Source of the DNA: an uncultured Olsenella sp.
GTDB lineage: Bacteria > Actinomycetota > Coriobacteriia > Coriobacteriales > Atopobiaceae
Length of the DNA stretch: 64,000 bases
NCBI GenBank assembly: GCA_949287905.1
Contig: CASEHX010000018.1
Location: forward strand, 1 to 64,000
Direction of reading: 5' to 3'
Shown here: piece after piece, positions 37,899 to 63,720 of the stretch
How the letters are laid out: the number at the start of each line of letters is the position of its first letter
Numbering within the stretch: position 1 is the first letter of the stretch
Translations under genes and position numbers: made by a program
Notes under the pieces: model-generated
Told to the model about the DNA's origin: nothing
What the model saw: the letters and a program-made list of their open reading frames with translations, nothing else
Database searches by the model: none

Positions 37899-39320
<1,422 letters not shown>

Positions 39321-39353: not shown

Positions 39354-39409
39354 CGCAGCTTATTGAGGGCCATCCCGCATCGTCCGCCATGTGTCTGGAT
39401 GAGCGATGC

Positions 39410-39710
39410 GAGATGACTCTCGTCTCAGCCAAGCGAGCAGGAGAGCTTGATGAATCGGGGCTCGTCTCAGCCCAAAGCTCTTCTCGCTTGACAAAATCAG
39501 GCTCGTCTCAGCCGAGCGACCGCTTGGGCTTGACGAAATCGGGCTCGTCTCAGCCTTAGCAGCAAATGCAACTGAGACGAGCCCCGTTTCGTCAAGAATA
39601 TGGGCGCCAAAGCTGAGACGAGCCTCGTTTCGTCAAGATTATGGGCGCCAAAGCTGAGACGAGCCCAGTTTCGTCAAGCCACAACCCCACCGAGGCTGAG
39701 GCGAGGCCGG
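39410..39710. repeat. R1 array, locus B: four inverted then four direct repeats, 41-42-bp period
   Basis: Minus-orientation copies have CTCGTCTCAG at 39419, 39461, 39502 and 39544. Plus-orientation copies have CTGAGACGAG (last one CTGAGGCGAG) at 39572, 39613, 39654 and 39695. The full unit extends through a degenerate TTTCGTCAAG. Two consecutive spacers share TATGGGCGCCAAAG. The inversion offset is 28 bases (39544 to 39572), as in locus A. Central copies could pair as a long stem with a short loop. The array lies between the rpmA terminator and the obgE promoter, so it is probably not transcribed by either. Confidence 0.9.
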
Positions 39711-39729
39711 GCTCGGACAGTCGCGCCCC

Positions 39730-39760
39730 AAAAGAAAACCCCGCGCCCAGGAACGCGGGG
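39730..39760 (-). terminator. Terminator of rplU-rpmA
   Basis: CCCCGCG and CGCGGGG with an 8-base loop, followed by TTTTCTTTT on minus, 26 bases after rpmA. Confidence 0.9.
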
Positions 39761-39785
39761 TCGAGACGAGCTATGGGGTTGCGCC

Positions 39786-40034
39786 CTACGCCTCGCGAAC
39801 GTGCACGCGGTGCTTGACGCCCTTGGTGAACTCAACGGTGCCGGCGGTGAGGGCGAACAGGGTGTCGTCCTTGCCGATGCCGACGTTGTCACCGGGGTGG
39901 ATGTGCGTGCCACGCTGACGGACGAGAATCTCGCCAGCCTTTACGAACTGGCCGCCGTAGCGCTTGGTGCCCAGACGCTGGGCGTTGGAATCGCGGCCGT
40001 TACGGGACGAGCCGAGACCTTTCTTGTGAGCCAT
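39786..40034 (-). CDS. rpmA: Large ribosomal subunit protein bL27
   Basis: An 82-residue 50S protein. It begins directly [19 protein letters not shown], without the cleavable N-terminal extension seen in many Firmicutes, and continues [20 protein letters not shown]. Follows rplU in the standard rplU-rpmA-obgE order. Confidence 0.97.
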
Positions 40035-61812: not shown

Positions 61813-62020
61813 ACGGCAGTGCGCAGTGGCACCGGCCATGCGCACTGCCGACGATTATGTGCAGCGGCGTCGGTTGTGCGCAGTGCTGACAGCTGTGCGA
61901 ACGCAGCGTGAATATGAAACCGTAGCTAAATGAAGTGACGAGAAACTCCTCTTCTCGCAGCGCAGCGCATAACCGTCAGGACAGCGCATAACCGACGTCG
62001 CTACGCACGATAACCGTCCC
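61813..62020. repeat. R2 array, left: 19-bp repeats, five inverted then three direct
   Basis: In minus orientation the TGCGCA-like boxes begin at 61820, 61839, 61858, 61877 and 61896, an exact 19-base period. After the core, plus-orientation copies with CGCATAACCG begin at 61966 and 61985, with a more diverged third copy near 62004. It lies downstream of aroB with no credible coding sequence. Confidence 0.85.
61921..61957. repeat. R2 core, left copy
   Basis: This 37-base segment aligns without gaps to 63469-63505 at 27 identical positions. It contains CGAGAA (61939-61944) and TTCTCG (61952-61957), a 6-bp dyad with 7-base loop. It lies where repeat orientation flips. Confidence 0.8.
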
Positions 62021-62325
62021 ATCGCCAGCGAGGCTGCGGCCTCAAGCCAAGGGCTCCACCCGCAGATGGACAGCGCGCCGCGAGCCACACGCCACGAGAA
62101 CTTTCCATAATCCGACCAAATACGTCTTACTGAGGCTCGGACGTGGGTCAAAACCGCACGCTTCGCACACCCAGAGCCGCTCGCCGCGCAAACCCCGCCA
62201 TTTACGAAATGGCCAGCCTTGTGAAATCCCCCGTGCTCAGGCGCTCCACCAGCGGAAAGTGTGCCTCTGGCAGATTGCGTCAGTCTCATGCAGCCAACCG
62301 TCAGATGCAAGATCGCTCCCTCTCG
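62021..62325. other. Intergenic region between R2-left array and nuclease gene
   Basis: About 300 bases with no gene I can support. The nuclease frame is open upstream to 62143 but with no ribosome-binding site and unusual composition. Only the promoter at its right end is recognisable. Confidence 0.5.
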
Positions 62326-62331
62326 TATAGT
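62326..62331 (+). promoter_or_regulatory. -10 element of the nuclease gene; leaderless transcript likely
   Basis: TATAGT ends 9 bases before the ATG at 62341. A start site 6-8 bases after it would leave almost no leader, and no Shine-Dalgarno precedes the ATG. Confidence 0.55.
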
Positions 62332-62340
62332 GGTCGCACC

Positions 62341-63285
62341 ATGATCACCGTTGATGACATATCCGCGCTCTCGCGCTGGGCGGATCCCGCTCTCGCAGCG
62401 CGACTCGCCCCCGTCGAGAAGCCCGTCTTCTGGTCAACCTCCTCGGAGAGCGTCAGGGACCAGGCCGTCCTTCGTGCTGCGAGGCTCGAGGCAACGACCG
62501 AGAGACCGCTTCACGTGCTTGTCCCCTCAGCCGGAGAGCGAGTGCGCTGCCAGGGGGTCGTCTCTCACGTCTGGTCCACGCCGTTGCCTGACAACGCCCT
62601 CTATCACCTGACGCCCGAGGTTATTCTCGCCTCCCCACAATTCTGTCTTCAGGGAATCTCCGCTCGAGGCAGTCTCGTCAAGGCAGTTGTCACGGCAATG
62701 GAAATCTGCGGGGACTACGGAAGGACCCCGCACGCAAATGGCGGCTTTTTCAAACGGTCCCCTCTAGCTCGACTTCCCGAGCTTCGCGAGCACTTCGATC
62801 GCAATCACGGATACGGAGCAAAGAAGGCGAGAAGGGCGCTGAGGCACGTCGTCGAGGGCTCGCGCTCACCGATGGAGACAGTCGTCATCCTGCTCTTCAC
62901 CCTGCCAGTCGAGATGGGCGGATGTGGCCTTCCTGACCCCGAGGTCAACGTGAGAATCGAGATACCCCCCGATCTACGGGCGGCCCTGGGGAAACCGTAT
63001 GTTGTCGTCGACCTCTGCTGGAGGGGCGTTCGCATCATTCTTGAGTATGACAGCTACCTCTGGCACTCCACGGCGGCTGCCGTCGACTCTGACAGTACGA
63101 GAAACGAGGGGCTGCGCGACCTTGGCTGGATGGTTCGGTCCGTGACCGTAGGCATGCTGACAAACGACAGGATGCGACGGCATCTGGTGTCCAAGGTAAT
63201 GGAGCGTTTTGGGAGGAAGCTCCCAGCAACGCCCCAGTTTGACCAGCTTCAACATGACCTAATCCAGGAGCTGCTGACCTGCTAG
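62341..63285 (+). CDS. DUF559/Vsr-like PD-(D/E)XK nuclease-domain protein
   Basis: A 314-residue protein. The N-terminal ~165 residues are alpha/beta of unknown fold and resemble the front part of AbiEi-like/DUF559 proteins of Coriobacteriia by recollection. The C-terminal domain has a nuclease pattern: Glu179 in GSRSPMETV, Asp224 in VVVDLCWRGV, Glu235-x-Asp237 in IILEYDSYLWHS, then an Arg/Asn helix and LGWMVRSVTV, as in Vsr and DUF559. No methylase, toxin or antitoxin partner is adjacent. It sits alone between aroB and aroA, bracketed by two R2 arrays. Role unknown: defence, repair or element-encoded nuclease are all possible. Confidence 0.75.
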   Translation: MITVDDISALSRWADPALAARLAPVEKPVFWSTSSESVRDQAVLRAARLEATTERPLHVLVPSAGERVRCQGVVSHVWSTPLPDNALYHLTPEVILASPQFCLQGISARGSLVKAVVTAMEICGDYGRTPHANGGFFKRSPLARLPELREHFDRNHGYGAKKARRALRHVVEGSRSPMETVVILLFTLPVEMGGCGLPDPEVNVRIEIPPDLRAALGKPYVVVDLCWRGVRIILEYDSYLWHSTAAAVDSDSTRNEGLRDLGWMVRSVTVGMLTNDRMRRHLVSKVMERFGRKLPATPQFDQLQHDLIQELLTC

Positions 63286-63320
63286 GCGGTCGCCTCGACG
63301 CAACGATTGCAGGAGGTGAT

Positions 63321-63720
63321 GACGCTTATGCGCGGTTGCGACGGCTGTGCACATCAAAGACGGTTGTGCACACCCCTAACGGGAGGCACGACAACGCGAC
63401 GGTTGTGCGCTGCGCGAAAGGGTATGCGCAATGCCGCCGGTTGTGCGCATAGCACACATTCATAGATCCGCAGGTAGACGAATTGGCGAGAAGAACCTCT
63501 CCTCGGGAAACTTCGCACAACCGCTCAGACCGCGCACAACCGAAGCCGTTGCGCACAGCCGTCACCGTTGCGCACAGCCGTCACCGTTGCGCACCACCGC
63601 TTCCGTTGCGCACCACCGCTTCCGTTGCGCACAGCCGTCACCGTTGCGCATACCCGTCAGAAACGCGCTCAACCGCAGCCGTGCCGCGCAGCCTTCGCCA
63701 ACACGCATGGCCGTCGAGGG
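63321..63720. repeat. R2 array, right: 19-bp repeats, seven inverted then eleven direct
   Basis: Minus-orientation boxes (GTGCGC or variant) begin at 63328, 63347, 63366, 63385, 63405, 63424 and 63443. Plus-orientation copies (CGCACARCCG or variant) begin at 63514, 63533, 63552, 63571, 63590, 63609, 63628, 63647, 63666, 63685 and 63704, an exact 19-base period eleven times. The best unit is CGCACAGCCGTCACCGTTG. The minus-to-plus offset is 71 bases, identical to the left array. Confidence 0.92.
63469..63505. repeat. R2 core, right copy
   Basis: Ungapped match to 61921-61957 (27 of 37). The dyad is CGAGAA with TCCTCG, one mismatch from perfect. Confidence 0.8.

Follow-up and report, generated by a model that had tools for sequence, protein, structure and literature searches.

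The intergenic DNA between rpmA and obgE in an uncultured Olsenella sp. holds eight copies of one box, arranged as two inverted arms around a centre, and raises the question of what such an array is for and what binds it. We addressed this question in the window (the whole 64,000-nucleotide stretch analysed here), in the genome to which it belongs (G000; 1.985 Mb, 29 contigs) and in genomes of the same genus and beyond.

The array between rpmA and obgE

The features of the window to which we refer are listed below; rpmA and obgE are the names that we presume for the flanking genes from their translations.

39404 to 39428, minus strand: box L4, outermost left; core retained, second element gone
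39446 to 39470, minus strand: box L3
39487 to 39511, minus strand: box L2
39529 to 39553, minus strand: box L1
39554 to 39571, no strand: 18-bp centre; sequence free, 56 of 61 arrays share this length
39572 to 39596, plus strand: box R1
39613 to 39637, plus strand: box R2
39654 to 39678, plus strand: box R3
39696 to 39720, plus strand: box R4, outermost right, degenerate
39737 to 39762, minus strand: rpmA intrinsic terminator, just ahead of the array (terminator scan)
39786 to 40034, minus strand: rpmA, ribosomal protein L27 (translated sequence)
37899 to 39299, minus strand: obgE, GTPase (translated sequence)
165 to 325, no strand: second CTGAGACGAG array of the window, one box left, four right, centre 18 bp; 3' of two tRNA genes
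62341 to 63285, plus strand: distant member of the nuclease-like family, beside repeats of a 19-bp unit

The array spans 39404 to 39720 and consists of four leftward and four rightward boxes of ~25 bp, each of which, reading outward from the array middle, comprises the core CTGAGACGAG, a 5-bp gap and a second element, TTTCGTCAAG. Cores start at 39419, 39461, 39502 and 39544 on the minus strand and at 39572, 39613, 39654 and 39696 on the plus strand, the last being CTGAGGCGAG, with one mismatch to CTGAGACGAG. The steps between them are 42, 41 and 42 bp in the left arm, 28 bp across the centre and 41, 41 and 42 bp in the right arm, in agreement with the initial annotation, which had described eight copies recurring every 41 to 42 bases, four of them inverted and four direct about the centre. 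The outermost boxes on both sides retain the core and have lost the second half. The window contains 15 occurrences of the 11-mer CTGAGACGAGC with at most one mismatch, whereas 100 dinucleotide shuffles gave 4.27 on average and never more than 10.

With respect to the setting of the array, the annotation had placed it between a terminator and a promoter. The terminator is there, running from 39762 to 39737 behind rpmA. The promoter could be followed only in part: a sigma-70 scan found none, and obgE is preceded by a conserved block, GTTGGACGC...GTTGCCGTACCAT, that recurs in the obgE upstream regions compared within the genus. At gathering score, Rfam 15 matches in the window are tRNAs only, with none at the array. 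A coding reading of the arrays was rejected, since pitches of 41 and 42 bp break the reading frame.

Dispersal, geometry and conservation of the arrays

A scan of related genomes with the motif, which the annotation had called for, revealed that the arrays are dispersed, with 61 CTGAGACGAG arrays in five genomes of one genus. G000 contains 136 exact copies of CTGAGACGAGC (reversed control, 0) and 22 arrays with at least three boxes. At least one centre is present in 5 of the 31 genomes of the genus (G000 20, G026 17, G020 15, G027 4 and G016 2). A collection of 84,980 species, from which the records closest to G000 are possibly left out, yielded 45 stretches, 36 of them from four Olsenella/Atopobiaceae assemblies, with 18-bp centres apart from two, of 17 and 8 bp; the 9 stretches from unrelated bacteria contain no 18-bp centre.

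The geometry is constant across most of the 61 arrays. Of the steps between boxes of one direction, 238/244 measure 41 or 42 bp, which supports the earlier proposal of a helically phased protein platform acting at the DNA level. The centre measures 18 bp in 56 arrays, 8 bp in two that are orthologous, and 17, 19 and 59 bp in one each, and an arm may have as few as one box or as many as seven. First boxes match the core at 9.98/10 and those further out still match it well, while the second element score falls from 8.61 in the first box to 6.85 by the fourth and is 6.25 in outermost boxes versus 8.37 inside (background, 2.34). Because outermost boxes retain the core and score low on the second element, the order within an array is core-second-core-second-core.

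We compared 47 orthologous array pairs, confined, like the inversion tally below, to arrays with the exact 28-bp centre step and the full 102-bp context. Core identity is 938/940, a value that is biased upward by the choice of arrays whose cores have at most one mismatch. Identity is 800/940 in the second element, 350/470 in the 5-bp gap, 1120/1598 in the spacers and 535/846 in the centre, and the flanks are ~89% identical. Core and spacing are kept between species while centre and spacer sequences drift. Furthermore, the centre alone, and not the first-unit spacers, is inverted between species in L097 versus L051 and L090 (18-bp centre; L097 892-929, L051 2805-2842) and in L107 versus L054. 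Over all pairs the centre is direct in 33, flipped in 14 and unclear in 8, a tally that takes in pairs agreeing in one flank and some cross-matched paralogous places, so we base the claim of inversion on the two cases in which both flanks agree. Either cutting or passive processes acting at inverted repeats can produce such flips.

The rpmA-obgE gap itself varies in length among 30 genus genomes, being 125 to 157 bp in 13, 175 bp in one and 303 to 796 bp in the remaining 16; differing repeat elements occupy many of these longer gaps. The rpmA-obgE gap is a hot spot (L109-L138), near-empty in 13 to 14 genomes and filled with varied repeats in others, among them 20-bp palindromes in G023, 19-bp units in G013 and TTTTGGGCAA pairs in G010 and G024. 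In G009 it holds an array of a different core, TGGTACAG, at the 41/42 pitch. TGGTACAG pairs spaced by 41 or 42 bp number 53 in G009, 39 in G023, 13 in G025, 5 in G010 and 3 in G026, and the other 26 of the 31 genomes have none. When no pitch is preset, its same-direction steps in the stretches analysed are 41 (18), 42 (10), 82 to 84 (7) and 126 bp (1), with four others (31, 32, 94 and 103). The TGGTACAG centre gaps (27, 27, 38, 58, 68, 68, 69, 69 and 90 bp) are fitted best by a period of 10.4 bp among the 8 to 14 bp tested (R 0.965), a fit equalled at any period by 0.27% of random sets of six distinct gap values.

The annotation had made spacing by multiples of the helical repeat at other loci the test of its reading. 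This holds for families of the 41/42 design, since the pitch recurs over the 61 arrays and in a family with an unrelated core; a more distant class departs from it, using a 19-bp unit. We observe this related class, with its non-integer number of helical turns, in G013 and in the surroundings of the window's own family member (61950-63710), where the gene at 62341-63285 lies between short GCGCATAACCG repeats upstream and an inverted GCGCACAACCG array of the 19-bp unit downstream. Solo ACCTATGGCA and CTGAGACGAG elements also stand side by side, ~50 bp apart, at G000:C12:46579-46883 and G000:C18:204801-205147. Elements of many code words are accompanied by one recurring motif, GGCGAGAAG/CTTCTCGCC (flanks of L161, L166, L167, L171, L172, L189, L195 and L206), which may be a shared recognition part. 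A GTGCCGACGG array of G023 has a centre (L157 11567-11607) that consists of a hairpin and then a T run and so may double as a terminator.

A nuclease-like protein family and its code words

Two CTGAGACGAG arrays in G000 enclose a 363-residue ORF (L060). The gene with the CTGAGACGAG code in this genome lies at G000:C22:68111-69199, and the rpmA-obgE locus has the array only. A homolog in G027 (L094) is likewise enclosed by CTGAGACGAG arrays, among different neighbour genes. At the oppF locus, G000 has array-gene-array (L060) and G020 a single array (L075). Near-identical array pairs also enclose other genes, namely, small ORFs (L054 3704-4633), a zinc-ribbon/Sel1-like ORF (L108 4809-6045) and a sugar-uptake operon (L061 2630-7521); L054 and L108 differ in the enclosed genes at the same locus.

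The protein belongs to a multicopy family of ~360 residues found mostly in Coriobacteriales, with 6 to 16 matches per genome in 31/31 genus genomes. In a phylum sample of 198 genomes, 17 have matches, of which 13 belong to the same order; the best E among the other four, which lie outside that order, is 3e-13. Taking match starts as gene starts, we observe the same inverted 8-mer pair at equal distance in both flanks of 30/62 homologs with full 900-bp flanks (32/70 when short flanks are included), compared with 1/1000 random segments and 0/476 ORFs; about half of the homologs have no such flanking repeats by this test. Further homologs, many of them distant, have the pair in 17/40 cases, including 8/26 outside the genus (1100-bp flanks, without a separate control). 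The stricter test superseded a first, blunter k-mer test, in which at least three shared copies per flank were found in 31/70 genes versus 48/800 random segments.

Pfam gives only weak matches for the family, with MTES_1575 (PF18741) matching 17/62 members at E <= 1 (best E, 0.005). Of six members scanned singly, three match MTES_1575, all below the 38.2-bit cut-off; these matches, at residues 215-289, cover the conserved RKPD...(V)EYxG..H..D..R. The conserved residues of the family, which include P227, D228, Y248, G250, H253, D262 and R265, are consistent with a Vsr-like site, and we make the weak assignment of a putative Vsr/MTES_1575 endonuclease-like family. NCBIfam has no match in the six members, PADLOC anti-phage defence models match 0/6, and no relative of the family protein is found among PDB sequences; an AlphaFold model built from 2 sequences has a mean pLDDT of 34. 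A viral or phage origin was rejected, as IMG/VR contains no match by array DNA pattern or by protein profile. Searches of the open PMC literature returned nothing on these repeats or this protein family.

The repeats around family genes differ in sequence, and the code word tracks the protein clade. After removal of 8-mers containing the widespread CGAGAA, a code word is common to 11/13 inter-genome homolog pairs at >=70% identity, to 1/123 at 50 to 70% and to 0/314 below; code sharing among close homologs may partly reflect common descent of a cis-linked block. Dispersed copies of a word are found in the same genomes as its gene: CTTAGG-N-TTGGAG occurs 44/33/24 times in G000/G020/G026, in which the cognate gene is present, versus 1/0/1 in G016/G027/G004. 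ACCTATGGCA, with a recurring 19 and 62/63-bp layout, occurs 23/13/16 times in the former three genomes versus 3/3/4 in the latter. Predicted beforehand for G007, CCGTTAGGAA has 31 copies there and 0 to 4 in the 30 other genomes; the secondary guesses of G016, G004 and G021 did not come true (0, 1 and 0 copies). CGACTTGGCAG, predicted for G030/G003/G024, has 21/11/9 copies in these and, unpredicted, 12 in G014. GGACCCAAAT surrounds family genes of G018 and G022 and is also present in their rpmA-obgE gaps, and three code words coexist in one genome.

The coupling has exceptions. No cognate CTGAGACGAG gene was detected in G020 and G026, which carry 15 and 17 arrays and whose best homologs, at 55 to 56%, have another code; nor was a cognate TGGTACAG gene in G009 (53 hits) or a cognate CGACTTGGCAG gene in G014 (12 hits). 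Some of the assemblies are incomplete, and it is unlikely that this explains all of the missing cognate genes. In G025, the flanks of the family gene carry GGTACAC and not the dispersed TGGTACAG.

Possible functions and known systems

We consider it fairly probable that the array serves as a platform on the DNA at which one member of this undescribed multicopy nuclease-like (Vsr/MTES_1575-type) family, which occurs mainly in Coriobacteriales, docks. The reading builds on direct observations: the geometry, the dispersal, the conservation of core and spacing and the gene between two arrays, together with the clade-specific words, the dispersed same-code copies in the same genomes, the small centre inversions and the one-array versus array-gene-array alleles at orthologous loci. 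Each family protein would recognise the core of ~10 bp, probably together with the second element, and, because the pitch equals four helical turns, the box-bound copies would align on one helix face. At the centre the two arms would come together symmetrically, and there the endonuclease-like domain may nick or cut. A dispersed population of arrays would then be maintained, with occasional copying, and the gene would remain as a single copy between two arrays.

The arrays might instead be architectural or regulatory sites for a nucleoid or regulatory protein of the host that has no relation to the nuclease-like family, the family genes merely happening to lie nearby. This fits the helical phasing, the conserved core and spacing and the arrays in genomes without a detected cognate gene. 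We regard it as unlikely, given that identical inverted repeats stand on both sides of 30/62 family genes versus 0/476 ORFs, that the code changes with the protein clade and that three codes in one genome would be needless for a general architectural protein. The annotation had envisaged an architectural or regulatory protein; nothing that we found favours an architectural protein of a general kind or a regulator of promoters. The best candidate binder is the nuclease-like family, whose genes sit between cognate arrays, and 0/19 classifiable G000 arrays lie between divergent genes (11 are co-directional and 8 convergent). That same placement, 3' of genes, would suit an RNA element in which the inverted array forms a long transcript hairpin, as a terminator or 3' stabiliser, and the one G023 centre that reads as a terminator (L157) points the same way. 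Opposite first-unit spacers, however, are alike at 5.47/16 positions within an array versus 6.6/16 between arrays; because paired spacers are less alike within arrays than between, the arms are not complementary and we rejected a long hairpin. With no Rfam family at the array and no obvious RNA meaning for a fixed pitch and 10.4-bp phasing, an RNA function is highly improbable.

Movement offers two further explanations. As recombination landing pads, the arrays would mainly be repeats for the entry and exit of accessory genes, comparable to solo LTRs after gene loss, and protein activity would not be needed today. The oppF alleles (array-gene-array in G000, one array in G020) and the array pairs flanking other genes (L054, L108 and L061) speak for this; left-over repeats should decay, yet the cores are near-perfect while the spacers drift, and the centre length is 18 in 56/61. 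Taken as the main function we find it improbable, although landing-pad use and a binding function are compatible and can both be true. It is highly improbable that the arrays are canonical REP/REPIN elements mobilised by a Y1 (RAYT-type) transposase: all 5 array-bearing genomes do have 1 to 3 Y1_Tnp genes above the Pfam cut-off, but the four Y1 loci checked (L304-L307) of eight matches have no CTGAGACGAG, the boxes form no REP hairpin, and the repeats flank a different protein family.

Returning to the docking platform, the shared code word, the gene between arrays and the relatives with other words together suggest an undescribed protein-DNA partnership dispersed within these genomes. A broader version, which we advance tentatively and rate at slightly less than an even chance, is that Coriobacteriales harbour a new class of intragenomic partnership, with up to a dozen or more endonuclease-like paralogs per genome, some having a private ~10-bp word set in helically phased mirror arrays around the gene itself and at many other sites, and that the proteins nick, flip or open the centre, keeping and spreading the arrays as accessory-gene entry points. 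If true, a protein family would have changed its DNA code word many times with the geometry fixed, providing dozens of natural protein-DNA code pairs from which to learn how a nuclease-like fold reads DNA, and the helical phasing of the arrays would be testable base by base. It would also be a possible explanation of gene-exchange hot spots in common gut and rumen bacteria, and would mean that the REPIN-RAYT way of life within bacterial genomes had been built a second time, independently.

Plasmid centromere arrays such as sopC consist of tandem units of ~43 bp to which a partner protein binds. The unit is close to the 41/42-bp pitch observed here, where a partner protein is likewise proposed; sopC units are unidirectional and belong to one replicon, whereas the present arrays have inverted arms and number about 20, dispersed along the chromosome. 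As for the protein, the weak profile match in 17/62 members links the family to MTES_1575 (PF18741), a Vsr-type REase that the portion of PMC3710099 used here describes as a fusion partner of HEPN, helicase and wHTH domains. The family matches fall below the Pfam cut-off where shown, and in that portion of the paper MTES_1575 is not described beside repeat arrays.

The closest likeness in logic is to REPIN-RAYT systems, in which, according to the parts of the reports used here, REP hairpins are acted on by the RAYT, a Y1 transposase (Bertels and Rainey 2011, PMC3116915; PMC8049555). Common to both, as far as those parts go, are dispersed intergenic inverted repeats in several flavours per genome, the adjacency of each flavour to its own single-copy protein gene and long persistence, even in genomes without the gene (PMC3116915; PMC8049555). 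Repeats that lie beside a single-copy cognate gene and are also dispersed are found here, except in G020, G026 and G009. Neither the protein nor the hairpin fits membership in REPIN-RAYT: the family is putatively Vsr/REase-like, from weak matches, with no Y1 match in its members, and the boxes are non-palindromic, with a weak dyad only and arm spacers that are not complementary. The arrays here are, moreover, long, helically phased and symmetric about a centre of fixed length, and their movement is a matter of interpretation. Our best reading, in which binding, cutting and spreading are all conjectural, is that a logic like that of REPIN-RAYT has been built from unrelated parts.
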